Source of the DNA: Myxococcus eversor
GTDB lineage: Bacteria; Myxococcota; Myxococcia; Myxococcales; Myxococcaceae
Length of the DNA stretch: 64,000 nucleotides
Direction: 5' to 3'
NCBI RefSeq assembly: GCF_010894455.1
Contig: NZ_JAAIXY010000016.1
Coordinates: 124,001 to 188,000 of the forward strand
Under the pieces are notes generated by a model. The model saw only the letters and a list, made by a program, of their open reading frames with translations. It made no database searches and was not told the origin of the DNA. Each line of letters begins with the position of its first letter. Within the stretch, counting starts at the first letter, position 1. A program made the position numbers and the translations under genes. Below, one piece after another: positions 1,723 through 33,164 of the stretch.

Positions 1723-3147
1723 TCACGCCTTGAAGGTGAGCAAGGGCGCCAGACGCGCCACCTCGCGGACGATGCCGGCCTTCACCTGCGAGTCCACCAC
1801 CGGACGGATGGGCTTGTAGGCGGCGGGGGCCTCCTCCACCCGTCGCTCCGAGCGCAGGGTGATGCAGTCCACGCCCTTCAGGCCCAGCGCCGCCTCGCTC
1901 TGGTCGGCCCCACCCCGTGACAGGGAGAAGCGCGAGCGCGCCCGCCCCGCCCCATGGGACGCGGACTCCAGCGCCCGCGCATCACCGCACCCCACCATGA
2001 GGAAGGACGTGGCGCCCATGGAGCCGGGGATGATGACGGGCTGCTCGGCGCCCGCGGGGCAGGCGCCCTTGCGCGCCAACCAGCCCCCCTCGTACGGGAG
2101 GGTGAGGTTGTGCGGCACGTCGTAGACGAGCGGTGCCTCCACGTCGCCGAACAGCTCGCGCAGCGTCTGTCGCAACAGCTCCGCGAGCAGCAGCCGGTTG
2201 AGGAAGGCATAGTTGGCGGCGGTGGCCTCGGCCTCCAGGTAGCCAGCGACGAGCGCCTCGTCCGCCAGCGGGAGGATGCCGCTCTCCGGGAAGGGAGCCC
2301 CCTGGGGCCAGGCCTTGCGGGTGCGCTCACGCCAGGCCACCCCGACGTGTTTACCCACGTCGCGGCTGCCGGTGTGAATCATGAACGCCAGCTGTCCTTC
2401 GCGGACGCCCCACTGCCAGGCTCGCGCCCGGTCCTCGACGGCCTCCACGCGCTGCACCTCGACGAAGTGGTTGCCTCCGCCGATGGTGCCCAGGCCCGCG
2501 TCGCGCACCACGCCCTCGCGGGTGAGTGCGTCCGGTGCCCAGCTCGGGTTGCCGCGCAGCGCGCCGCCCAGGTGGATGCGTCCCACCTCCGCGTCGAGCT
2601 GCGCCAGGTCCGCCGCTTTCGCGCAGCCCAGCGGTGCGTCCAGCGTCTCCAGGAGCCAGCCTGGGATGCCGTCGCGCAGCAGGGCCGTGGACGCTCGCGA
2701 GGACATCGCCACGTCCCTCGTGCCGAAGAAGTAGTGGCCCTTCATGCGCTCGACGAAGTCGTCACGTCGCGCCAGGAAGTCCTCCACGGAGAGGTCCGCG
2801 ACGTGCAAGCGCATGCCGCAGTTGATGTCGGTGCCCACGGCGCCCGGGACGACGAGCCCACGCGTGTGCAGCACCGAGCCGATGGCCACGCCGGAGTCGC
2901 CCGGGTGGAAGTCAGGGGTGGCGCGCACGCGCAGCACCTCGCCACCACCCGGGTGCTTCAGGGCGGCGAGCTGTGCGAGCTGTTGGAAGGCCTTGCCCTC
3001 GACGGGCAGGTCCGGGGGGAGAAGCACCTCGGCGGGTGGCGCGTTCGCGTCACCGTGGAGGCGCACGGTGTAGAGATGACCGTCATAGGTCACCTCGAGC
3101 CCCTCGCGGGCAAGCGCCCGCAGGAGCCGATTCAGTTTCGGCTGCAT
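1723..3147 (-). CDS. rtcB: RtcB-family RNA ligase (tRNA-splicing/repair ligase)
   Basis: RtcB joins RNA 2',3'-cyclic phosphate or 3'-phosphate ends to 5'-OH ends, using GTP and Mn2+. The 474-residue length is usual. Family landmarks appear in order: G-T-D-I-N-C-G-M-R near residue 120, the metal-site G-G-G-N-H-F-V-E-V-Q near 225, H-T-G-S-R-D-V-G-K-H, the R-K-G-A segment, then S-H-G-A-G-R, whose His is the residue that becomes guanylylated. The end A-Y-K-P-I..V-V carries the C-terminal family motif. No archease, RtcA or RtcR gene is adjacent. A TROVE/Y-RNA locus, a frequent partner of rtcB in bacteria, lies 12 kb away, and a Y RNA lies 3.5 kb away. Confidence 0.95.
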   Translation of the reverse strand: MQPKLNRLLRALAREGLEVTYDGHLYTVRLHGDANAPPAEVLLPPDLPVEGKAFQQLAQLAALKHPGGGEVLRVRATPDFHPGDSGVAIGSVLHTRGLVVPGAVGTDINCGMRLHVADLSVEDFLARRDDFVERMKGHYFFGTRDVAMSSRASTALLRDGIPGWLLETLDAPLGCAKAADLAQLDAEVGRIHLGGALRGNPSWAPDALTREGVVRDAGLGTIGGGNHFVEVQRVEAVEDRARAWQWGVREGQLAFMIHTGSRDVGKHVGVAWRERTRKAWPQGAPFPESGILPLADEALVAGYLEAEATAANYAFLNRLLLAELLRQTLRELFGDVEAPLVYDVPHNLTLPYEGGWLARKGACPAGAEQPVIIPGSMGATSFLMVGCGDARALESASHGAGRARSRFSLSRGGADQSEAALGLKGVDCITLRSERRVEEAPAAYKPIRPVVDSQVKAGIVREVARLAPLLTFKA

Positions 3148-6687: not shown

Positions 6688-6838
6688 TCCGCGCCCGGCA
6701 GAAGAGGCCCTACACGCTCTCGGACTTCGCTGGTTCGAATCCAGCTCCCTCCGCCATCTGGAGGGATAGCCAAGCGGTCGACGGCACCAGACTTCCATCT
6801 GGCAGGTCTTCCTCACGGCTTCCTCACTCGGGCGCGGA
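6688..6838 (+). ncRNA. Y RNA A: permuted tRNA(Gly-like) module closed by a long stem
   Basis: A 10-bp closing stem pairs 6688-6697 with 6829-6838. After a 3x3 internal loop (GCA/ACT), an inner stem pairs 6701-6709 with 6817-6825 (one A-C mismatch, one G-U). Inside lies a circularly permuted tRNA. The T-arm comes first (6729-6745, loop TTCGAAT), then the acceptor 3' strand 6746-6752, G, CCA and TCT, then the acceptor 5' strand 6760-6766 (a perfect 7-bp stem). Next come TA, a D-arm at 6769-6785 with a GG pair, and an anticodon-like arm at 6787-6802 with loop CTTCCA. That loop is one base short of tRNA-Gly(UCC). Bacterial Y RNAs of the YrlA type are known tRNA mimics, and two more copies lie near the TROVE gene. 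Confidence 0.85.
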
Positions 6839-14526: not shown

Positions 14527-14655
14527 GAGCGCCCGGCCCGAGAGGCCCTACACGCAGTGGTTCGACTCCACACCCCCACCACCCGGTGGGACGACGCCGG
14601 GCGGACCGGCACTGACCTCGTAAATCAGCCCGCCGGCCTCTCGACTCGGGCGCTC
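14527..14655 (+). ncRNA. Y RNA B: permuted tRNA(Thr-like) module closed by a long stem
   Basis: The closing stem is a perfect 9 bp (14527-14535 with 14647-14655), followed by the same GCC/ACT internal loop as copy C and a perfect 9-bp inner stem (14539-14547 with 14635-14643). The enclosed part reads T-arm (14557-14571, loop TTCGACT), a closed acceptor-like hairpin (14575-14580 with 14585-14590, loop ACCC), D-arm (14596-14610 with GG) and an anticodon-like arm (14612-14628). That arm has the canonical loop CTCGTAA, anticodon CGU for threonine with U33 and A37/A38. Inner-stem sequence differs from copy C but pairing is kept, which is covariation. Confidence 0.88.
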
Positions 14656-14681: not shown

Positions 14682-15389
14682 ATGTCCCCCCGCACCATCG
14701 TCATCGGAGACCTCCATGGCTGCCACGACGAGGCCCTGGAGCTGCTCGCCAAGGTGGGGGCCACGTCCAGCGACCGCGTCATCTTCGCCGGGGACCTGGT
14801 GGACCGGGGCCCGAAGCCCCGCGAGTGCGTGGAGCTGGCGATGCGGCACGAGGCCATCCTCGGCAATCACGAGGAGAAGCACCTCCAGCAGCGCCACCGC
14901 GAGGACAGCCGCCTGCTGCCGGACCACCTGGCGACGCGACAGGCCCTCGACGCCACGCACTACGACTGGATGGCGGCGCTGCCCCACTACATCCGCCTGC
15001 CCGAGCACAACGCCCTCGTCGTGCACGCCGGCATGCTGCCCGACCTCCCCGTCGAGGCGCAGGACCCCTACCACCTGCTCCACGCGCAGTGCATCCAGCC
15101 ACCCGGCAAGAAGAGCTACTGGCCGTCCAAGGCACCGGAGGGCTGGACGTTCTGGACCCATCACTGGAAGGGGCCGGAGCGGGTCATCTTCGGACACACC
15201 GTCTTCGACCAGCCGCTCGTCACCGAGCACGCAGTGGGTATCGACACCGGCTGCGTGTATGGCCGCTCACTGACGGCGGTGGTGCTGCCCACGTGGGAGC
15301 TCGTCTCCGTGCCCGCCCGGAAGTCCCACCGGAGTGGCAAGGACGTGGCGCGCATCCCCATCCACGGCGACGTGTGCGTCTTCTCCTGA
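14682..15389 (+). CDS. PPP-superfamily metallophosphatase (ApaH/PrpE/Pnkp-phosphatase type)
   Basis: The ATG follows a GAAGGAG site only 26 bases after Y RNA B. The 235-residue protein shows the complete PPP motif series: G-D-L-H-G-C at residues 9-14, G-D-L-V-D-R-G near 38-44, G-N-H-E near 61-64, a later V-V-H-A-G and F-G-H-T. Relatives cleave diadenosine tetraphosphate, protein phosphates, or, in bacterial Pnkp, RNA 2'- and 2',3'-cyclic phosphates. Its place between two Y RNAs and upstream of a TROVE gene makes an RNA-end-healing role attractive, but that is inference. Confidence 0.88.
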   Translation: MSPRTIVIGDLHGCHDEALELLAKVGATSSDRVIFAGDLVDRGPKPRECVELAMRHEAILGNHEEKHLQQRHREDSRLLPDHLATRQALDATHYDWMAALPHYIRLPEHNALVVHAGMLPDLPVEAQDPYHLLHAQCIQPPGKKSYWPSKAPEGWTFWTHHWKGPERVIFGHTVFDQPLVTEHAVGIDTGCVYGRSLTAVVLPTWELVSVPARKSHRSGKDVARIPIHGDVCVFS

Positions 15390-15413: not shown

Positions 15414-15547
15414 GCGCCCGGCCGACGGGGCCAGACACGCCTGAGAGATGCGGGTTCGAGTCCCGCCGACGGCCGTCAGGCCTCGTAGTTCAACTGGCAG
15501 AACACTGGACAGTCAATCCAGCAACACAGGCCTCGTCACTCGGGCGC
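15414..15547 (+). ncRNA. Y RNA C: permuted tRNA(Asp-like) module closed by a long stem
   Basis: The closing stem pairs 15414-15420 with 15541-15547, then GCC/ACT, then a 9-bp inner stem 15424-15432 with 15529-15537 (one G-U). Inside are a T-arm (15450-15466, loop TTCGAGT), a closed acceptor-like hairpin (15467-15474 with 15479-15485, one bulged C, loop GTCA), TA at 15486-15487 and a D-arm (15488-15503 with GG). An anticodon-like 5-bp arm follows (15505-15521) with loop CAGTCAA, which reads GUC (Asp) but has A where U33 is expected. The short motif ACACGC follows the inner stem in all three copies. It lies 160 bases upstream of the TROVE gene, the expected protein partner. Confidence 0.88.
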
Positions 15548-15707: not shown

Positions 15708-17474
15708 ATGACGACCCCGACGCAGAACACTCCGCTGCTGCCCGAGACGCAGCGTGGCCCCGCCGAGCGCCTGCTGGACCTGGTGCTCAGTGGCTCCGCG
15801 CACCTGTGGCACAACCGGCCGGGACTGGACGTGAATGGCACCTGGGTGGCCGCGGCGCACGCCACTCCGGCGCAGCGCACGCTCGGCAAGCCCGTGAAGC
15901 CGGGCCTCTTCGTGCCGGCGGCGGTGCGCCTCTACCGACAGCTGTTGGACATCCACCGACTCAACTCGGAGCTGATGGCGCACTTCGCGTCGTACGCGCT
16001 GACGCAGACGGACTGGCGTGACCTGAAGGTGGCCACGTGCGCGCTCATGCTGGTGCAGGAGCACGCGGGCCAGCCCGTCGTCGGCGAGGACGGGAAGGTG
16101 GCGTTCCACGACGATGACTGGCGGGCCATCGGCGAGGCCATGGTGCTGCACTACGAGCGCAAGTCCACGCGCATGCTCACGCCCAAGGCGGTGCTGCGAG
16201 TGGCGGAGCTGCTCGAGCTGCCGGACATCGCGCGCCTCAACCGAGAGGCGGGCTTCGGCGACCCGGCGTCTCGCAAGGCGCCCATGGGCCGCTGGAAGCG
16301 CGTGGCGTCCCGGTGGCTGGCGGCGCGTGAGGCCAACCTGCCGATGCTCCAGGGTCTGGTGAAGGCGGGCTACAAGGAGACGCTGAAGAAGCTGGCGCGC
16401 AAGGCGGGGTACAAGCCGCGCGCGCAGGGCTTCTTCGAGGTGCTCGGCTGGAAGCAGAAGCAGGCCGAGGGCGGGCACCGCACGGTGGGCCTGAGCGGGC
16501 TGACGTTGGTCAAGAGCCAGCGCTTCGACGGGTTGTCGGAGGCGGAGATCTGCGAGTGGATCGAGCTGGAGCGCCTCTCCTACAAGGAGGTGGTGGGCCG
16601 GCTGCCGAAGGACCTGGGCATGACTCCGGCCATCATGGCGGCGCTGCTGCCCTCGTTGTCGGACCGTGACTTGCGACTGATGACGCCGACGCTCGAGGAG
16701 CTGGGGCTGTTGGCGGAGCCCTCCGTGCGCGGGCGATGGGAGCTGGCCGTCCAGACGGCGACGGACCAGCGCGCGCTGAACATCGCGAAGAACGTGCGCA
16801 GCGACGTGCTGCGCCAGAAGCTGGAGGAGGCGAGCGACAACGCGGCACGACAGGCGGTGGCGGAGGCGACGGCGGAGACCGACGTGAGGGTGATGTTCCT
16901 CATCGACAAGTCGGGCTCCATGGAGGGCGCCATCGAGAACTCGAAGGAGGCGCTGGCGCGCATCCTCGCGGGCTTCCCGATGGAGAAGCTGCACATCGCG
17001 GCGTTCGACACGATGGGCACCGTCCTCAAGCCGAAGGCCGCCAACCGCACGGCGGTGCAGCACATGCTCGAGCGGCTCAAGGCGTCGGGCGGCACGACTC
17101 ACGCGGCCGGGGTGCATGCCCTGCACCGCGACGGCGTGAAGGTGCCTGAGGGGGCGAAGCTGGTGGTCATCGTCGTGGGTGACGAGGCGGGCGAGGCGGG
17201 TGACCAGTTCGCCCGCGCGTTCCGCGACTGCGGCTACACGGTGGCGGCGCTGGCGTTGCTGGTGAGCGTGGCGGGGGCCCGTGGCAACACGGTCCGCACG
17301 TGCGCGAGCTTCATGAAGGTGCCCTTCAGCGAGGTGAACGTGGACCAGTTCGCGGACCCGTACCAGGTCCCCCGGGTGCTCAAGGCGCTGCTGGATGCGC
17401 CGACTCAGCCCGGTGCCAGCCAGTCCGGCTGGGTGGAGCGGGTGATGCGCACGCCGTTGCTGAAGGTGGCGTGA
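15708..17474 (+). CDS. TROVE/vWA-domain protein, Ro60/Rsr-like Y-RNA-binding protein
   Basis: This 588-residue protein has a helical HEAT-like N-terminal region (about 20-380), the shape of the TROVE ring that binds misfolded RNA and Y RNA. A C-terminal vWA domain starts near residue 392 with V-M-F-L-I-D-K-S-G-S-M. MIDAS residues are visible: D400, S402, S404, a G-G-T-T-H near 461-465 and G-D-E-A-G-E later. In other bacteria Rsr works with Y RNAs and exoribonucleases such as PNPase in RNA quality control and stress survival. Here two Y RNAs lie directly upstream. It is the first gene of a three-gene operon. The TROVE call rests on architecture and context; the vWA part is certain. Confidence 0.85.
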   Translation: MTTPTQNTPLLPETQRGPAERLLDLVLSGSAHLWHNRPGLDVNGTWVAAAHATPAQRTLGKPVKPGLFVPAAVRLYRQLLDIHRLNSELMAHFASYALTQTDWRDLKVATCALMLVQEHAGQPVVGEDGKVAFHDDDWRAIGEAMVLHYERKSTRMLTPKAVLRVAELLELPDIARLNREAGFGDPASRKAPMGRWKRVASRWLAAREANLPMLQGLVKAGYKETLKKLARKAGYKPRAQGFFEVLGWKQKQAEGGHRTVGLSGLTLVKSQRFDGLSEAEICEWIELERLSYKEVVGRLPKDLGMTPAIMAALLPSLSDRDLRLMTPTLEELGLLAEPSVRGRWELAVQTATDQRALNIAKNVRSDVLRQKLEEASDNAARQAVAEATAETDVRVMFLIDKSGSMEGAIENSKEALARILAGFPMEKLHIAAFDTMGTVLKPKAANRTAVQHMLERLKASGGTTHAAGVHALHRDGVKVPEGAKLVVIVVGDEAGEAGDQFARAFRDCGYTVAALALLVSVAGARGNTVRTCASFMKVPFSEVNVDQFADPYQVPRVLKALLDAPTQPGASQSGWVERVMRTPLLKVA

Positions 17475-17503
17475 ACCCGAAGTCGTGGTGACAAGGAGGC
17501 GGC

Positions 17504-18523
17504 GTGGACTACCGGAAGTTCCTCGGGAAGGTGGAGTCGGCGGTGCTGCCGTATCTGGGCGGCGGCACCGTGGACACCGCTTCGCGCCGCCTCCGTGTCA
17601 CCTCCCCCGTGGCGCCGGGGTGGTGGCGCTTCGAGGTGAAGGGGCGGGAGGCCACGGCGTGCGAGCCGGCCAGTCCGGAAGGTCTGGACAGGCTGCCGCG
17701 CGTGCGAGGCCACATGTGGGGCTCGCGGCTGGTGCGCGAAGGCGCGGTGGCCGAGCCCCTGGAGTTGATGCCAGAGGAGGAGCCCGCCGTGCTCGCGCCC
17801 GTGAGTGCCCGGCGCTGGCACGACGGCTCGCTGCTGTTCGACGGGGTGGACTTCGAGGGCGAGGCGGAGGACCAGGCACGCCGTGCCCTGGAGGAGGGTC
17901 AGCCGCTCTCCACCGTGAAGGGCGTGAGCGCGCCGCTGCGGGCGGCCTATGGCTACGCGCTCTTGGGGTCGGCGTCCAGGACGCTGGGCATCCGCTTCGC
18001 ACCAGCGGAGACGCGCGGCCGGGTGCTGCGGGTGGCCGAGCAGGGCCGGACCGAGGCGGAGTCCTGTCTGCGGGCCCTGGTGGCGGAGCGAGAGGCCCAT
18101 CAGCGCGCGCTCGCGGCGAGGCTGCTGGCGGCGAACGTGCAAGCGCAGGCGGCACAGACAGCGGAGGCAGCGCGGGCCCGTGCCGTGGAGCTCGCGGAGA
18201 GGGCTCGGCGACACCTCGATGGCGCGGGGGCCCGACATGGGCGGGGTGCGCCAGTGGGCGACCACTCGCGCGCGGAGGTCGCGCTCCAGGGCGCGGGGGC
18301 GCGGTTGCTGAACCATCGAAGGATGGCGGGAAATCAGTTGGAGGTGACGTTCGCCTTCATGGGGGAGCGCTTCATCTCCGTCGTCGACGCGGGCACGCTC
18401 CAGGTCATCGACGCGGGCGTGTGTCTCGCGGGCGCGGACAGCGAGGTGACGCTGGAGAGCCTGCCCTCGGTCATCCGAGAGGCCATCGAGACGGACGTCC
18501 TGGTCATCACCCGGCACGGGTGA
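17504..18523 (+). CDS. unknown protein of the TROVE/Y-RNA operon
   Basis: A GTG start 29 bases after the TROVE gene, preceded by AAGGAGG, gives 339 residues. I do not recognise the family. The N-terminal 150 residues look globular with Trp-rich motifs (G-W-W-R-F-E-V, R-R-W-H-D-G-S). Residues 180-245 are an Ala/Arg/Glu-rich helix likely to be coiled coil. The last 60 residues form a compact beta/alpha unit (L-E-V-T-F-A-F-M-G-E-R-F, then V-I-D-A-G-V-C). No membrane segment or signal is seen. Tight spacing to both neighbours suggests it works with the Ro-like protein or with the JAB-like protein. Confidence 0.75.
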   Translation: MDYRKFLGKVESAVLPYLGGGTVDTASRRLRVTSPVAPGWWRFEVKGREATACEPASPEGLDRLPRVRGHMWGSRLVREGAVAEPLELMPEEEPAVLAPVSARRWHDGSLLFDGVDFEGEAEDQARRALEEGQPLSTVKGVSAPLRAAYGYALLGSASRTLGIRFAPAETRGRVLRVAEQGRTEAESCLRALVAEREAHQRALAARLLAANVQAQAAQTAEAARARAVELAERARRHLDGAGARHGRGAPVGDHSRAEVALQGAGARLLNHRRMAGNQLEVTFAFMGERFISVVDAGTLQVIDAGVCLAGADSEVTLESLPSVIREAIETDVLVITRHG

Positions 18524-18542
18524 CGTGCGGAGAGGAGGAGTC

Positions 18543-18914
18543 ATGTCGATGCAAGAGGTGTGTCTGCTCATCGGTCGGGACGAGGAGGTGTTGTGGTGCG
18601 AGACCTCCGACAGTCCCGTCCTGCTGCCTGACTCCCGCACGCGGTGGGAGGCCATCTGGTACTGGCGTCACGAGCTGGTGGAGGTGGCGCACAGCCACCC
18701 CGAGGGCCCGCTCGGCTTCTCCACCGAGGATGAGACGACGATGACGGCGTTGACGGAGGCGCTCGGTCGCGCACCGCGCTTCTCCGTCGTGGCCCCCGGC
18801 GGCATGGTCGCCCGCGTCGAGGGCCGCGATGTCTGGGTCTCCGACGAGCCCTGGTGGGCCGAGCCCTTGCGCGAAGTCTCGGGAATGACTCACTCGCCCA
18901 TGGCGCGCGCGTAA
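18543..18914 (+). CDS. JAB/JAMM-like metalloprotease (isopeptidase-type)
   Basis: This 123-residue protein has the exact JAMM zinc signature H-x-H-x7-S-x2-D, as H50-S-H52, S60 and D63, set in A-H-S-H-P-E-G-P. JAB domains remove ubiquitin or ubiquitin-like tags and occur in bacterial E1/Ubl operons. The start is chosen at M-S-M-Q-E-V because GGAGGAG precedes it; it lies 19 bases after the preceding gene. The matching candidates for a tag and an E1 are about 10 kb away at 28.3-29.2 kb. The N-terminal part, before the metal site, is short, so the domain is compact. Confidence 0.8.
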   Translation: MSMQEVCLLIGRDEEVLWCETSDSPVLLPDSRTRWEAIWYWRHELVEVAHSHPEGPLGFSTEDETTMTALTEALGRAPRFSVVAPGGMVARVEGRDVWVSDEPWWAEPLREVSGMTHSPMARA

Positions 18915-28338: not shown

Positions 28339-28587
28339 ATGGCGACCCTGAACATCACCTATGACGGCATGTCCGCGGACGTGCCGGTGGAGCTGGACCG
28401 GCCGGTGTCCGACTCCGACGTGCGCCGCATCGCCGCGGAGCTGATTCGCGCGGGCGGAGTGCCCGGCCTGCACCTGGCGCACCTGCGCGACGACGTCTTC
28501 CAGCACTTCGTCGTGGACCGGTTCCGGGGTGCGCGTGGCGACGAGCGCATCTACCTGCGCCCCAAGGTGCCCTTCGGCGCCCGCTGA
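28339..28587 (+). CDS. small beta-grasp (ubiquitin-like) protein candidate
   Basis: The 82-residue protein starts at M-A-T-L-N-I after GAGGAGG. The predicted order is strand (L-N-I-T-Y-D-G), strand (A-D-V-P-V-E-L), a helix (S-D-S-D-V-R-R-I-A-A-E-L-I-R), then two short strands ending R-I-Y-L-R-P-K. This is the beta-beta-alpha-beta layout of ubiquitin-like folds. It ends G-A-R, not Gly-Gly, so conjugation is not proven; processing by a JAB protein could expose another end. The next gene, nine bases away, encodes a ThiF/E1-like enzyme, the usual partner of bacterial Ubls. The fold is inference from pattern and context. Confidence 0.6.
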   Translation: MATLNITYDGMSADVPVELDRPVSDSDVRRIAAELIRAGGVPGLHLAHLRDDVFQHFVVDRFRGARGDERIYLRPKVPFGAR

Positions 28588-28596
28588 GGAGAAGCC

Positions 28597-29178
28597 ATGC
28601 GCATCCTCTTCTGCGGTGTGGGCGCCATCGGCTCCCAGGCGGCCGTCCTGTGCCGCAACCTGGAGGCCACCCTGGTCTTCATCGACTTCGACCGGGTGGA
28701 GTCCAAGAACCTGCTCGCCCAGGCCTACGTGAAGCCCTCTGTCGGGAAGAACAAGGCCGAGGCCCTCAAGCTCCAGCTCCTCAACCTGCACGGCGTGAAG
28801 TCGGAGTCCTTCGGCGTGCGAGTCACCCGCGACAACGTGGCGGCCCTGTGTGGCGGCGCGGACCTGCTGGTGGACTGCTTCGACAACCAGGACAGCCGCC
28901 AGCTCCTCGGCGACTTTGCTCGGGGAGCAGGCAAGCCCCTGGTACACGGCGCGGTGAGCGCGGACGGGACTTTCGGCCTGGTCCGCTGGGACGAGCGATT
29001 CGTCCCGGATGCCGAGGACACCGCCGGGCAGGCCACCTGCGAGGGCGGCGCGCACCTGCCTCTCCTGGGCCTGCTGGCCGCCACCCTCGCCCGCTGCGTG
29101 CAGGACTTCGTCAAGCAGGGCATCAGGCGGGACGCACTCGTGAACCTCTCCTCCGTCGTCCCCACCTCGAGTCACTGA
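28597..29178 (+). CDS. ThiF/E1-like adenylyltransferase, small form
   Basis: The 193-residue protein is a minimal Rossmann-type E1 domain. G-V-G-A-I-G is at residues 7-12. I-D-F-D-R-V-E-S-K-N-L-L-A-Q at 29-42 matches the E1 pattern D-x-D-x-V-x-x-x-N-L-x-R-Q, except that Ala replaces the conserved Arg. K53 and V-D-C-F-D-N (92-97) fit the ATP site. C148 in T-C-E-G is a possible acceptor cysteine. E1 enzymes adenylate the C-terminus of ubiquitin-like proteins. It starts nine bases after the beta-grasp-like gene. At under 200 residues it lacks the extra domains of MoeB or canonical E1. Confidence 0.85.
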   Translation: MRILFCGVGAIGSQAAVLCRNLEATLVFIDFDRVESKNLLAQAYVKPSVGKNKAEALKLQLLNLHGVKSESFGVRVTRDNVAALCGGADLLVDCFDNQDSRQLLGDFARGAGKPLVHGAVSADGTFGLVRWDERFVPDAEDTAGQATCEGGAHLPLLGLLAATLARCVQDFVKQGIRRDALVNLSSVVPTSSH

Positions 29179-30181: not shown

Positions 30182-30340
30182 ATGACAACGGCGAAGATGC
30201 AGTCGAACGAGACGAAGCGCAGCTATCGACACAACCTCTGGTCCCAGTTCGACGCCGCCTCCTGCTCCTTCTCGAGCACAGGCTCGATTCGCAACGTGGG
30301 ATTCAGCCACCTTCACGGCCATCCGCCCGTACCCTGCTGA
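30182..30340 (+). CDS. 52-residue ORF before the tRNA array, possible leader peptide
   Basis: An AAAGGAG site seven bases before the ATG makes translation likely. The peptide starts M-T-T-A-K-M-Q-S-N-E and ends H-P-P-V-P-C. It is Ser- and His-rich and uses all 20 standard amino acids by residue 48, including Trp20, Cys28 and four His. Thirty-eight bases after its stop is a hairpin terminator, then the tRNA array. I suggest a leader peptide whose translation reports tRNA shortage. A peptide substrate of the nearby ThiF-like enzyme is the main alternative. No known family is recognised. Confidence 0.6.
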   Translation: MTTAKMQSNETKRSYRHNLWSQFDAASCSFSSTGSIRNVGFSHLHGHPPVPC

Positions 30341-30432: not shown

Positions 30433-30517
30433 GGGGACGTAGAGCGTTACGGCAGACGCGCGGGCCTGTAGAGCCCGAGCCCGACAGGGCCTGCTGGGTT
30501 CAACTCCCAGCGTCCCC
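30433..30517 (+). tRNA. tRNA-Tyr(GTA), class II
   Basis: A perfect 7-bp acceptor stem (GGGGACG/CGTCCCC), D-stem GCGT/ACGC, anticodon loop CTGTAGA (GTA), a long variable hairpin GCCC-GACA-GGGC as in bacterial tRNA-Tyr, and T-arm with TTCAACT. Discriminator A; CCA is not encoded. Confidence 0.88.
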
Positions 30518-30567
30518 ATGCTCCGCACGAGCAGGGCTGCATCATCCAAACCCAGACGTAATTTTCC

Positions 30568-30637
30568 AGGGGTATAGCTCAAAGGCAGAGCACTCGCTTG
30601 ATAAGCGGGTGATCCCGGTTCGACTCCGGGTACCCCG
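30568..30637 (+). tRNA. tRNA-Ile(GAT)
   Basis: Acceptor strand AGGGGTA faces TACCCCG with an A-G mismatch at the first pair. D-arm GCTC/GAGC, anticodon arm CTCGC/GCGGG with loop TTGATAA (GAT), T-arm CCCGG/CCGGG with TTCGACT. The variable loop has four bases. Confidence 0.82.
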
Positions 30638-30644
30638 ACTCCAT

Positions 30645-30716
30645 GTTGGCCGAAGGCGATTGGTGAGCCACCGGGATGTGACCCCGGGGAAGAGGGTTCG
30701 ATTCCCTCCGGTCAAC
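30645..30716 (+). tRNA. tRNA-His(GTG)
   Basis: Seven acceptor pairs with one G-U, D-stem GGC/GCC, anticodon stem CCGGG/CCCGG with loop ATGTGAC (GTG), T-arm GAGGG/CCCTC. Discriminator C is as in tRNA-His, but the base before position 1 is T, so the usual G-1 identity base is not encoded. Confidence 0.8.
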
Positions 30717-30795
30717 CTGACAGTCCCAGCTCTCTGACAACTGAATCGTCGTGGTGAATGCACGCCGCCTGCTCACACAGGGGTGGCGGCAAAAT

Positions 30796-30865
30796 GCCTC
30801 CGTAGCTCATTGGTAGAGCATCCGCCTCTTAAGCGGACGGCGAGGGTTCGAATCCCTCCGGAGGT
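30796..30865 (+). tRNA. tRNA-Lys(CTT)
   Basis: Acceptor GCCTCCG/CGGAGGT (G-U first pair), D-arm GCTC/GAGC, anticodon stem TCCGC/GCGGA with loop CTCTTAA, T-arm GAGGG/CCCTC with TTCGAAT, discriminator A. The 79 bases before it hold nothing I can name. Confidence 0.88.
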
Positions 30866-30883
30866 ACTCGAAGCAGCAGCAAC

Positions 30884-30953
30884 GCGGGTGTCGTCCAGCG
30901 GCAGGATGGCGGTTTCCCATACCGTCGACACGGGTTCGAATCCCGTCACCCGC
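30884..30953 (+). tRNA. tRNA-Gly(CCC)
   Basis: Acceptor GCGGGTG/CACCCGC is perfect. D-arm GTCC/GGAT, anticodon loop TTCCCAT (CCC) on a 5-bp stem with one G-U, T-arm ACGGG/CCCGT with TTCGAAT, and discriminator T as expected for glycine. Confidence 0.86.
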
Positions 30954-30973
30954 TTCACATGTGTCACTTCCAT

Positions 30974-31044
30974 ACCGGAGTCGTCTAATCAGCAGGATGG
31001 CGGATTCTGACTCCGCAGGCGCAGGTGCGATTCCTGCCTCCGGT
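30974..31044 (+). tRNA. tRNA-Gln(CTG)
   Basis: Acceptor ACCGGAG/CTCCGGT, anticodon stem GCGGA/TCCGC with loop TTCTGAC (CTG), T-stem GCAGG/CCTGC. The T-loop is TGCGATT, with G where position 55 is normally T, so the usual pseudouridine site is absent. Confidence 0.82.
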
Positions 31045-31064
31045 TCTCTCTTCACGCAGCACAT

Positions 31065-31135
31065 TCCCCGGTAGCTCAATGGCAGAGCGCGCGGCTGTTA
31101 ACCGCGAAGTTGGGGGTTCGAGTCCCTCCCGGGGA
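31065..31135 (+). tRNA. tRNA-Asn(GTT)
   Basis: Acceptor TCCCCGG/CCGGGGA, D-arm GCTC/GAGC with GG, anticodon stem CGCGG/CCGCG with loop CTGTTAA, T-arm with TTCGAGT, and discriminator G as in asparagine tRNAs. Confidence 0.88.
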
Positions 31136-31154
31136 GCTTGCAACAGACGCAACT

Positions 31155-31223
31155 GGCCAGTTCCGCCCGGGGTGGCAACGGTCTGCAAAACCGTTTGGGA
31201 CGGGTTCGACTCCCGTATTGGCC
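31155..31223 (+). tRNA. tRNA-Cys(GCA)
   Basis: Acceptor GGCCAGT/ATTGGCC with one G-U, D-stem GCC/GGC, anticodon stem ACGGT/ACCGT with loop CTGCAAA, T-arm ACGGG/CCCGT, and discriminator T, the cysteine identity base. Confidence 0.86.
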
Positions 31224-31234
31224 TCACTTTCATT

Positions 31235-31306
31235 GCCGACCTGGCGTAGGTGGTCCGCGCGCCCGTCTGAAGAGCGGGAGGACTCGGTTCGATTCCGAGG
31301 GTCGGC
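31235..31306 (+). tRNA. tRNA-Phe(GAA)
   Basis: Acceptor GCCGACC/GGTCGGC, D-stem GCG/CGC with loop containing GG, anticodon stem CCCGT/GCGGG with loop CTGAAGA, T-arm CTCGG/CCGAG, discriminator A. Confidence 0.86.
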
Positions 31307-31330
31307 ACTTCGCAGCACGTTTCACTTCAT

Positions 31331-31397
31331 AGGCTGCGCTCCGGGAGCAGCTTGGACTCCAAATCCGAGCGCGCGGGGTTCAACTCCCTGGCGGCCT
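31331..31397 (+). tRNA. tRNA-Trp(CCA) with minimal D-arm
   Basis: Acceptor AGGCTGC/GCGGCCT, anticodon arm TTGGA/TCCGA with loop CTCCAAA, T-arm CGGGG/CCCTG, discriminator G. Only 14 bases separate the acceptor and anticodon stems. They form GCTC-CGG-GAGC, so positions 8-9 are missing and the D-loop has three bases. Confidence 0.78.
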
Positions 31398-31406
31398 GCT
31401 CGTTTC

Positions 31407-31479
31407 GCCCCTGTAGCTCAACTGGTAGCAGCACCGGTTTCGTAAACCGGGGGTTGTCGGTTCGAACCCGACCGGGGGC
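31407..31479 (+). tRNA. tRNA-Thr(CGT)
   Basis: Acceptor GCCCCTG/CGGGGGC, D-stem GCT/AGC with GG in the loop, anticodon stem CCGGT/ACCGG with loop TTCGTAA, T-arm GTCGG/CCGAC with TTCGAAC, discriminator A. Confidence 0.86.
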
Positions 31480-31506
31480 ACTTCACGCAACACGCAGTCG
31501 TCACAT

Positions 31507-31577
31507 GGGTTCGTGGCTCAATGGGAGAGCACTCGGTTTGCACCCGAGGGGTTCCGGGTTCGAGTCCCGGCGGATCC
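31507..31577 (+). tRNA. tRNA-Ala(TGC)
   Basis: Acceptor GGGTTCG/CGGATCC carries the G3-U70 pair that marks alanine tRNAs. D-arm GCTC/GAGC, anticodon stem CTCGG/CCGAG with loop TTTGCAC, T-arm CCGGG/CCCGG, discriminator A. It is the only member with U34. Confidence 0.88.
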
Positions 31578-31584
31578 ACTTCAT

Positions 31585-31657
31585 GCCCTTGTAGCTCAGT
31601 GGATGAGAGCGCACGGTTCCGAACCGTGAGGTCGCAGGTTCAATCCCTGCCAGGGGC
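31585..31657 (+). tRNA. tRNA-Arg(CCG)
   Basis: Acceptor GCCCTTG/CAGGGGC, D-arm GCTC/GAGC, anticodon stem CACGG/CCGTG with loop TTCCGAA, T-arm GCAGG/CCTGC with TTCAATC, discriminator A. Confidence 0.87.
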
Positions 31658-31681
31658 ACTCGCTTCAGCCAAAGCCATTCC

Positions 31682-31755
31682 GCTTCCGTAGCTCAGTGGA
31701 TTCAGAGCAGGCGCGTCCTAAGCGCGAGGTCGCAGGTTCGAATCCTGCCGGGAGC
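31682..31755 (+). tRNA. tRNA-Arg(CCT)
   Basis: Acceptor GCTTCCG/CGGGAGC, D-arm GCTC/GAGC, anticodon loop GTCCTAA (CCT) on GGCGC/GCGCG, where the outer G-G does not pair. T-arm GCAGG/CCTGC, discriminator A. A T-rich run (31769-31775) follows. Confidence 0.83.
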
Positions 31756-31776
31756 ACACACGTTTCACGTTTTTTC

Positions 31777-31846
31777 TGCGGGGAGAGGCTGGTGCCTCAC
31801 CGGGCCTCATAAGCCTGGCCTCCAGGGTTCGACTCCCTGCTCCGCA
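31777..31846 (+). tRNA. tRNA-Met(CAT)
   Basis: Acceptor TGCGGGG/CTCCGCA with a normal T1-A72 pair, so probably an elongator type. D-stem GAGGC/GCCTC with the four-base loop TGGT, anticodon stem CGGGC/GCCTG with loop CTCATAA, T-arm CAGGG/CCCTG. Confidence 0.82.
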
Positions 31847-31855
31847 ACTCTTCAT

Positions 31856-31927
31856 GCACGCCGAGCCAGCTGGAGACGGCGACGGTCCCACACACCGTTT
31901 TCGCCGGGTTCGATCCCCGGGGCGTGC
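31856..31927 (+). tRNA. tRNA-Val(CAC)-like with C33
   Basis: Acceptor GCACGCC/GGCGTGC is perfect, D-stem GCC/GGC, anticodon stem ACGGT/ACCGT, T-arm CCGGG/CCCGG. The loop is CCCACAC: anticodon CAC, but position 33, almost always U, is C. Confidence 0.8.
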
Positions 31928-31947
31928 ACTCGTATTTCCGTGGTCTT

Positions 31948-32020
31948 GCCGGTGTAGCCCAATGGGTAGAGGTGCCAGGTCGAGAACCTGGAGGATGCGG
32001 GTTCGACTCCCGCCACCGGC
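31948..32020 (+). tRNA. tRNA-Leu(GAG)-like with C33 and short variable loop
   Basis: Acceptor GCCGGTG/CACCGGC, anticodon stem CCAGG/CCTGG, T-arm GCGGG/CCCGC. The seven-base loop TCGAGAA places GAG at 34-36 with C at 33. The variable loop has only five bases, although leucine tRNAs are normally class II, so amino-acid identity is uncertain. Confidence 0.75.
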
Positions 32021-32076
32021 ACTGTCGTCGCAGTCCGTAGCCCGCAGTCGCAAGTCAGCAGGACATCCCGAAGTCC

Positions 32077-32149
32077 GTCCGCGTAGCCCAAACGGGAGAG
32101 GCCGCCGGCTCAAACCCGGCACAGTGCGAGTTCGACTCTCGCCGCGGAT
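32077..32149 (+). tRNA. tRNA-Leu(CAA)-like with short variable loop
   Basis: Acceptor GTCCGCG/CGCGGAT (G-U first pair), D-stem GCC/GGC, anticodon stem GCCGG/CCGGC with loop CTCAAAC, T-arm GCGAG/CTCGC. The variable loop is five bases (ACAGT) instead of the long leucine arm. Confidence 0.78.
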
Positions 32150-32170
32150 ACAACCGAAAGGCGTTGCGTC

Positions 32171-32713
32171 ATGGAGACGCTGGTTCTCAGTCAGTCCTTC
32201 GAGCCCGTCGCGCGGATTCCCTGGCAGCGCGCGGTGATGCTCATCTTCCAGGGCAAGGTCGAGGTGGTCGAGGAGTACGAGGACCGCTTCGTGCGCTCGG
32301 TGACGGTGGAGATCCGCATGCCCTCCGTCATTCGTTTCTTCCGCGGGCTGCGCAAGGGCCCCAAGGGCGTGAAGTTCAGCCGGGAGAACGTCTACCTGCG
32401 AGACCGCTGCCGCTGCCAGTACTGCGGCCTCAAGGTGTCTCGCGCTGAGGCGACGTATGACCACGTCCTGCCTCGGGCCCAGGGTGGCCGCACGTCCTGG
32501 GACAACGTCGTCATCGCGTGTGTGCCCTGCAACCAGAGGAAGGGCAACCGGACTCCGGAGCACGCGAAGATGGCGCTGCGCTGCGCCCCGGTGAAGCCCA
32601 AGAAGCTGCCGGACGCGATGCACCTGACGTTCGTCTTCGAGCAGGGCATGCCCATGTCGTGGGCCAAGTTCCTGAGGGACGTGGCGTACTGGCATGGCGA
32701 GTTGGAGGATTGA
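32171..32713 (+). CDS. HNH endonuclease embedded in the tRNA array
   Basis: The 180-residue protein has a basic N-terminal half with a K-G-P-K-G-V-K patch and a C-terminal HNH/zinc module. That module holds C-R-C-Q-Y-C-G, then Y-D-H-V-L-P-R-A-Q-G-G, W-D-N-V-V-I-A-C and C-N-Q-R-K-G-N-R-T-P. The His-Asn-Asn catalytic pattern and two Cys pairs are intact, so a metal-dependent nuclease is expected. The gene starts 21 bases after the last leucine tRNA-like unit and is followed by three serine tRNAs, so it is probably on the same transcript. Related HNH proteins are common in bacteria and usually of unknown target; a role in cutting or trimming array RNA is speculation. Confidence 0.88.
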   Translation: METLVLSQSFEPVARIPWQRAVMLIFQGKVEVVEEYEDRFVRSVTVEIRMPSVIRFFRGLRKGPKGVKFSRENVYLRDRCRCQYCGLKVSRAEATYDHVLPRAQGGRTSWDNVVIACVPCNQRKGNRTPEHAKMALRCAPVKPKKLPDAMHLTFVFEQGMPMSWAKFLRDVAYWHGELED

Positions 32714-32744
32714 GGTCCCAGGACGGTGCGCCTGGAGGGGATGA

Positions 32745-32784
32745 GGAGGTCCGCCAGAGGCGGCCTCCCGCCCATGGACCTCCC
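32745..32784 (+). other. nested inverted repeats after the HNH gene
   Basis: GGAGGTCC and GGACCTCC form an 8-bp inverted repeat, and CCGCC-AGA-GGCGG nests inside it. The two hairpins share bases and cannot both form fully. No T-run follows. It may be a processing or termination signal between the HNH gene and the serine tRNAs. Confidence 0.4.
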
Positions 32785-32826
32785 CGCGAGCCGGCAGGCG
32801 GGTGCGCTGCTGCCGGCGACTTTTCT

Positions 32827-32911
32827 GGAAGACCGACGCTGGAGGCCGGCGGCCCGTTTCGAAAACGGTGCGGGTGCATGACGCGCTCGGGGTTCGAGTC
32901 CCCTGTCTTCC
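32827..32911 (+). tRNA. tRNA-Ser(CGA), class II
   Basis: Acceptor GGAAGAC/GTCTTCC, anticodon loop TTCGAAA (CGA) on a 4-bp stem with a C-T next to it, a long variable arm containing GCG/CGC, T-arm GGGG/CCCC with TTCGAGT, and discriminator G typical of serine. Confidence 0.82.
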
Positions 32912-32921
32912 GCTGTGACTT

Positions 32922-33005
32922 GGAGCATGCGGGCCGGGTGGCCGGCCGCCTGGCTGGAAACCAGGAGAGCCCTTCGGGGCTCGTGGTTCGACTCCACCGT
33001 GTTCC
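32922..33005 (+). tRNA. tRNA-Ser(GGA), class II
   Basis: Acceptor GGAGCAT/GTGTTCC with two G-U pairs, anticodon stem CCTGG/CCAGG with loop CTGGAAA, a strong variable hairpin GAGCCC-TTCG-GGGCTC, T-arm GTGG/CCAC, and discriminator G. Confidence 0.86.
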
Positions 33006-33022
33006 GCTCGCTTCACATGTTT

Positions 33023-33109
33023 GGAAGTTGGACTGGCGATGGCGCCAGGCCCCGCTGCTACCGGGTGCGAGCCGGCCTTCCGGCTTGAGGTTCGAGTCCT
33101 CCGACTTCC
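33023..33109 (+). tRNA. tRNA-Ser(GCT), class II
   Basis: Acceptor GGAAGTT/GACTTCC, a six-pair D-arm CTGGCG/CGCCAG, anticodon stem CCCG/CGGG with loop CTGCTAC, variable hairpin AGCCGG-CCTT-CCGGCT, T-arm GAGG/CCTC, and discriminator G. Confidence 0.84.
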
Positions 33110-33164
33110 GCTTCCCTCCGGCCTCGGGCCAGGGGATTCCGGCCACCCGCCGGGATTGCGCGCT

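Follow-up and report, generated by a model that had tools for sequence, protein, structure and literature searches.

What does a ubiquitin-like protein (Ubl) encoded beside a minimal activating enzyme (E1) act upon in Myxococcus eversor, and which other genes belong with it? We addressed this question in a window of 64,000 nt, positions 124,001–188,000 of contig NZ_JAAIXY010000016.1 (GCF_010894455.1). The initial annotation, made from the sequence alone, had proposed that two reading frames nine bases apart encode a Ubl of 82 residues and an E1 of 193 residues, and that the pair is tied to tRNA supply. Both frames were borne out by their coordinates on the + strand (28339–28587 for the Ubl and 28597–29178 for the E1, with nine bases between them), and their proposed identities were supported by a predicted beta-grasp fold for the smaller protein and a Pfam ThiF match for the larger one. 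Clustering of the open reading frames in 40 of 69 loci, followed by profile searches in all 69, showed that the pair makes up two fifths of an operon, with three same-strand genes upstream. We propose that the locus probably encodes a ubiquitin-like modification cascade built into a Ro60-Y RNA ribonucleoprotein (RNP), on the basis of gene content and order, co-occurrence, RNA covariation, active-site conservation and the tails of the Ubl.

The Ubl-E1 pair and its operon

Structure prediction, the check that the annotation had proposed for the 82-residue protein, gave a beta-grasp fold: the AlphaFold2 model (50 sequences) had a mean predicted local distance difference test score (pLDDT) of 91.4 and the order strand-strand-helix-strand-strand. 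Structural comparison returned ubiquitin, MoaD and ISG15 at modest Z scores of 4.2 to 5.5 and also NEDD8, amid GB1 and RAS-binding domains, and the alignments that close at Ubl residue 80 close at residue 76 of ubiquitin and residue 77 of MoaD. The Ubl had no family above cut-off in Pfam, NCBIfam or PADLOC, a Foldseek search with the model gave no row at E ≤ 0.001, and a PDB search with the profile gave nothing significant. The protein ends in RIYLRPKVPFG-AR, and we found that VPFG is invariant at the C-terminus in 69 of 69 loci. Behind this motif there were 30 different tails of 0 to 16 residues, with four loci stopping at the Gly, and the tails of viral homologues ran for 0 to 61 residues past the conserved Gly. 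Invariance up to one Gly and drift beyond it is the pattern expected of a processed Ubl precursor, and it fits a Ubl that is made as pro-Ubl and whose C-terminal Gly would be exposed by processing. The viral Ubl of four loci (L236, L239, L241 and L243) had C-terminal extensions of 33 to 61 residues beyond the conserved Gly.

The E1 consists of a ThiF domain (PF00899, E = 7.3e-20; MoeB match, 5.4e-13), and its nearest solved relatives were MoeB, ThiF and Uba4. The motifs G-x-G-x-x-G and V-E-x-x-N-L, which had been read from the sequence together with an Ala in place of the conserved Arg, were all confirmed by the sequence and by comparison with MoeB: the protein keeps G-V-G-A-I-G and F-D-R-V-E-S-K-N-L-L-A-Q, with Ala at the position of the MoeB Arg (position 41). 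Moreover, residues D30, K53, D93, D96 and Cys148 were conserved in 30 of 30 E1 sequences. The NCBIfam UbaA model scored 48 of 450 on this protein, far under its cut-off, and the PRTRC ThiF model scored 27.3 of 144.75 bits, which gives no support for membership of the PRTRC system.

Of 61 relatives, 33 had the Ubl, and a close E1 (E ≤ 1e-78) was found in exactly these. When public genomes were scanned, one per species, the 69 Ubl loci were obtained; the E1 was encoded in every one of them and was adjacent in 68, the exception being L128, in which the two genes lie 5.6 kb apart. The co-occurrence of Ubl and E1 exceeds chance. The source records comprised Myxococcaceae, two Virgisporangium species and metagenome-assembled genomes labelled, as deposited, Polyangiaceae, Kofleriaceae, Nannocystaceae, Planctomycetota, Terriglobia and Micromonosporaceae. 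One record titled Comamonas (L098, BNCN01000002.1) had a Myxococcus-like sequence and the Myxococcus gene order and is likely mislabelled.

The five genes occurred in a fixed order, namely a Ro60-like protein with a vWA domain (about 590 residues), an OB/UBC-like protein (about 300–370 residues), a JAMM protease (about 125 residues), the Ubl and the E1. The full set was found in 29 of the 69 loci, and many of the rest were truncated by contig or flank ends. In the window, the Ro60-like, OB/UBC-like and JAMM genes lie at 15708–18914 and are followed by 9.4 kb of other genes before the Ubl; in Myxococcaceae the halves of the system lie kilobases apart or on different contigs. We link these halves because they are inherited together. 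Among 195 genomes of the phylum, the Ro60-like gene was found in 76 and the Ubl gene in 78, and the same 76 were marked by both, a count that leaves out the marginal Ubl matches of G045 (E = 0.006) and G077 (E = 0.005) and a second match in G156. This co-occurrence held across separate contigs, for example in G027, G030 and G147. Searches of Pfam, NCBIfam and PADLOC with the window proteins or their homologues returned no model that names the system.

The JAMM/Prok-JAB metalloprotease gene (18525–18914, + strand; the Met at 18543 gives 123 residues) was recognised through homologues that match PF14464 (3.5e-7), with L108 above the cut-off (30.5 of 25) and L116 below it (21.3 of 25). Its JAMM motif (E5, H50, H52, S60 and D63) was intact in 26 of 26 sequences, and a PDB search with its profile gave nothing significant. 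The adjacent OB/UBC-like gene (17504–18523, + strand) encodes 339 residues, for which the AlphaFold2 model (pLDDT 91.5) showed three parts. Residues 10–117 form tandem OB-like domains, with RNase II, RlmCD, IF1 and RsgA in the VIA list of structural matches at Z up to 5.4, all Z values for this model falling within the range that the structural tool calls common. Residues 120–236 are helices including a long coiled coil, and residues 253–329 form a C-terminal UBC/RWD-like domain with a helix, four strands, a Cys and a second helix (topology a-bbbb-C-a). This Cys307, in the motif D-x-G-x-C-L, was invariant in 27 of 27 homologues, and G-x-C-L recurred among viral homologues. In an hhalign comparison with ten bacterial conjugating-enzyme (E2) domains, Cys was aligned to Cys in a weak match (P = 0.015); a Foldseek search with the model gave no row at E ≤ 0.001 and a PDB search with the profile nothing significant. 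We treat the protein as a candidate E2, its likeness being weak by sequence and by fold.

The Ro60-like protein and its Y RNAs

The Ro60-like protein (15708–17474, + strand, 588 residues) combines a helical TROVE-like N-terminus with a vWA domain, the latter matched in homologues, whose metal-ion-dependent adhesion site (MIDAS) was complete in 23 of 23 sequences. The hhalign comparison with eight TROVE-vWA proteins gave E = 2.4e-10 over their C-terminal two thirds, and about 195 residues at the start of the Ro60-like protein lay outside this match. The helical N-terminal part alone was matched at P = 7e-4, colinear with the vWA match; its score was reached by none of 100 column shuffles and none of 100 block shuffles, and reversed controls scored 20–22 against 37. 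Profile comparison thus found the TROVE-vWA architecture in this protein. Two genomes (G141 and G144) carried two Ro60-like genes each, and in G141 both had upstream Y RNAs (L231 and L232). An RtcB RNA ligase gene is located 12.6 kb from the Ro60-like gene (1723–3147, − strand; PF01139, 6.5e-88); it was rejected as a conserved partner because 5 of the 18 upstream regions contained it and these 5 came from a single genus.

In the 450 bases preceding the Ro60-like gene we identified a conserved element with a basal stem, a 2×2 internal loop and a second stem, in which GCC..ACA.GC is near-invariant and the 3′ strand carries CACTCGG. The loop of most copies contains a T-arm, a closed acceptor stem, a D-arm and often an anticodon-like arm, which together make up a tRNA-like module in circularly permuted order; the module stands in the normal order in L108, and four loci (L105, L112, L148 and L149) have short forms without it. 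The basal 5′/3′ stem and, outside the short forms, the tRNA-like domain that mark YrlA RNAs were found. The copy at 15414–15547 (+ strand), which lies 160 bp before the Ro60-like gene, folds at a minimum free energy of −62 (z = −3.44) into two basal stems with the 2×2 loop, a T-arm, a closed acceptor stem, a D-arm and an anticodon-like arm, and it matched Rfam YrlA (RF02553) at E = 3.4e-4 and 28.5 bits, under the gathering score of 69. This copy was one of 14 from which the covariance model R1 was built, and R1 had many matches outside its training set. Two of these, both YrlA-like and on the + strand, lie in the window at 6691–6835, 9 kb upstream of the Ro60-like gene (107.4 bits, fold z = −2.97), and at 14529–14653 (64.8 bits, z = −4.31). 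Two more Y RNA genes are present in the same genome (G000:C46:123772-123910 and C113:392495-392630). A calcineurin-like phosphatase gene (14682–15389, + strand) stands between the Y RNA genes at 14529 and 15414, and several relatives have such a gene close to a Y RNA.

Covariation supported the structure. In 27 copies, whose alignment was fitted to the covariance model and is thereby biased towards the structure, 95.2% of cells were paired compared with 72.2% in shuffles, and covariation was 0.636 compared with 0.187 (0 of 500 controls); double changes were seen at 23 of 30 base pairs. Matches to Rfam YrlA were also obtained in L111, L116, L133 and L144. Genome-wide, 2 to 6 copies were found in 14 of 14 genomes with the Ro60-like gene and none in 7 of 7 genomes without it. 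As controls for R1 we used 39 sources, namely two unrelated ThiF loci and 37 other Ubl-E1 loci whose sequence does not include the DNA preceding the Ro60-like gene, and these gave two matches, both weak and both at tRNA genes of L106.

The same gene set was found in viral contigs. The E1 profile identified 18 loci in IMG/VR contigs of 26–619 kb, whose phage status is taken from the labels of the collection; 10 of these also had the Ubl, and 6 had the complete five-gene set in unchanged order. A pattern scan of the viral contigs for the vWA protein found none; the profile of this protein does find it beside viral E1 genes. Y RNAs of 58–76 bits were located directly downstream of the E1 in 4 of the 18 viral loci (L234, L235, L237 and L240), and in one extra viral contig a Y RNA of 37.6 bits and a Ubl lie among 16 tRNAs. 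There were 0 to 19 tRNAs near the viral E1 loci. That the system occurs in viral contigs of phage size points to a role in conflict between phage and host over tRNA.

A proposed mechanism and its alternatives

All steps of catalysis and binding in this model are inferred, and so are its targets, its role in the cell and the assignment of an E2. The basal stem of the Y RNA would load onto the Ro60-like TROVE-vWA ring, and the tRNA-like module would recruit or imitate tRNA. The JAMM protease would trim the pro-Ubl after Gly80 (VPFG), and the minimal E1 would adenylate the Ubl and pass it, possibly via Cys148, to Cys307 in the candidate E2, and this protein would be seated on the RNA through its OB domains. 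The Ubl would then be attached to proteins met at the particle, such as those stuck on damaged tRNA, or nucleases, and the JAMM protease would take it off again. A more specific version is offered tentatively, and we hold it to be somewhat less than an even prospect: conjugation would be tethered to RNA, with the Ro60-like ring and a tRNA-mimicking Y RNA recruiting an OB-domain E2 that tags proteins on damaged tRNAs, in an anticodon-nuclease conflict between multicellular bacteria and very large phages in which tRNA arrays would serve as spare parts. The combination raises the possibility that protein tagging and RNA quality control are coupled in bacteria.

Several observations weigh against a cascade within a Ro60-Y RNA particle. 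The position of the MoeB Arg was occupied by Ala in 17, Ser in 12 and Gly in 1 of 30 E1 sequences, so that the Arg of the E1/ThiF superfamily was absent, and the protein is without the N-terminal region of larger E1s. In this superfamily the Arg of the N-L-x-R-Q motif makes a phosphate contact. We termed the protein E1-like because of the missing Arg; it could act on its partner by another route, or may be weak. The UBC-like part of the candidate E2 matched RWD domains of Spc24/Spc25 (3vz9 and 3vza) at Z scores of 4.3 and 4.0, in the same common range, and its match to E2 domains had an hhalign probability of 3%, with shuffles scoring higher in 1 of 40 and 0 of 100 cases. Pfam TROVE (PF05731) gave no match to the Ro60-like protein, for which reason it is named Ro60-like and is not assigned to that family, and a PDB search with its profile gave vWA-containing proteins and no Ro60. 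The Rfam YrlA scores of 28.5–43.6 bits all fell under the gathering score of 69, hence the name YrlA-like, and 6 of another 18 upstream regions of Ro60-like genes gave no Y RNA at E ≤ 1e-4.

Part of this evidence would also fit conjugation without an E2, as in SAMP systems, in which nothing beyond Ubl, E1 and JAMM would be needed and the OB/coiled-coil protein would serve as a scaffold that binds RNA, its RWD-like domain having no catalytic part. To our knowledge, archaeal SAMP systems have no E2, and the RWD domains in the VIA list together with the weak sequence match to bacterial E2s point the same way. However, Cys307 in D-x-G-x-C-L is invariant and the viral homologues retain G-x-C-L, whereas RWD domains are described in PMC1779556 as being without the Cys; we consider this alternative rather unlikely. 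It is less probable still that the Ubl is a sulfur carrier, adenylated and thiocarboxylated like Urm1, TtuB or MoaD for thiolation of tRNA or Y RNA instead of tagging, or with both functions. The closest solved relatives of the E1 (MoeB, ThiF and Uba4), the appearance of MoaD among the Ubl fold matches and the tRNA-like module of the Y RNAs are in its favour, but the JAMM gene in the operon and the variable pro-tails fit maturation and deconjugation. Moreover, clustering of neighbouring genes gave the operon genes and no other family common to most loci, and no sulfurtransferase was seen among the clusters, which were not profile-searched for one.

The initial annotation had instead placed the target in tRNA supply from the adjacent array. 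A nucleoside hydrolase-like gene (PF01156, 2.4e-21) followed by 20 tRNAs identified by ARAGORN (30433–33111, + strand) does stand downstream of the pair, as had been noted; the association of this array with the system is tentative. The nucleoside hydrolase was rejected as a member, since among 20 neighbourhoods examined it was found only in the window and L064. At least two tRNAs were present in the available sequence downstream of the E1 in 16 of 26 Myxococcaceae-type loci, the operons of L116 and L124 lie among tRNAs with a relative of the HNH gene of the array in each, and tRNAs stand beside several viral copies. However, 10 of the 20 neighbourhoods had no tRNA, all 20 array anticodons are duplicated among 60 tRNAs elsewhere in the genome, and jumbo phages often encode many tRNAs, according to PMC7824862. 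An apparent excess of tRNA genes near the operon (initially 5 of 30 loci, P = 0.018; 3 of 30 within 350 bp, P = 2e-4) was rejected because the calls at L108 4632, L115 2003 and L116 4686 are tRNA-like modules of Y RNAs and the Arg call in L145 has no Rfam match. Ordinary tRNAs with Rfam support are left beside L116, L124 and L145 alone, which is 3 of 30 other-family loci against 1.56 expected and is not significant because P for at least four is already 0.067. Thus, the tie to tRNA supply through the array is weak, and a connection to RNA and tRNA mimics stands through the Y RNAs. We regard modification in the array-borne tRNA supply as very unlikely; since viral loci also lie among tRNAs, some link with the array may still exist. 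Hardly credible, in our judgement, is that the Ubl-E1 and Ro60-Y RNA modules travel together yet act separately: their separation in Myxococcaceae would allow it, but their distribution over the 76 genomes is identical even when they are apart, and the order is fixed across distant phyla and viral contigs.

Two further genes lie in or near the array. An HNH_5 endonuclease gene (32171–32713, + strand) is located inside it, and relatives of it stand beside the operon in L116 (43%) and L124 (48%). A 52-residue peptide ending in Cys (30182–30340, + strand), just before the array, is conserved in several Myxococcus loci and had no family match beyond a sub-threshold Pfam one.

Comparison with known systems

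Operons for Ubl systems and particles of Ro60 with Y RNA have both been described in bacteria, mostly with roles still open. A single system that unites them and occurs in several phyla as well as in viral contigs of phage size would offer a direct handle on the purpose of the tRNA mimics in Y RNAs and on how ubiquitin-like tagging began, and M. xanthus (L088), a tractable laboratory species, carries the Ubl, E1, JAMM and OB/UBC-like genes. Archaeal SAMP-UbaA-HvJAMM and Thermus TtuB share with the present system a small Ubl, a ThiF-type E1 and a JAMM protease. We know of no RNP that goes with either of them.

In BilABCD (PMC11354881), CBASS Cap2/Cap3 and types 6a–6e of Iyer et al. 2006, the Ubl, E1, JAB and, if our assignment is right, E2-like proteins are encoded together as they are here, and type 6d has a small Ubl with a conserved C-terminal Gly (PMC1779556). 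Unlike those operons, the present one has a bare ThiF E1 of 193 residues, a putative E2 that shares its chain with OB domains and a coiled coil, as well as an added Ro60-like protein with Y RNAs. Similarly, PMC7790460 and PMC8394870 describe Ro60/Rsr-Y RNA operons (rsr-yrlBA-rtcBA; RYPER) with a TROVE-vWA-like protein beside Y RNAs that have tRNA-like domains, as here, whereas the present protein is distant from PF05731 and its partners are Ubl machinery, not rtcBA. The FtsH/vWA-MoxR ternary conflict systems with a Ubl tri-ligase have vWA, JAB, E1 and Ubl in common with it; according to PMC7159879 they carry MoxR, FtsH, a RING E3, a Ubl-E2 fusion and an EAD domain, whereas the present system has Y RNAs and a vWA domain fused with TROVE-like helices. 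A literature search, outside which some key Ro60 and RNA-repair papers lay, returned no description of a Ubl combined with Ro60/TROVE-Y RNA or with tRNA arrays. No compared Ubl system has a Y RNA and no compared Ro60 system has a Ubl cascade; the present system may also be seen as a merger of two known kinds.
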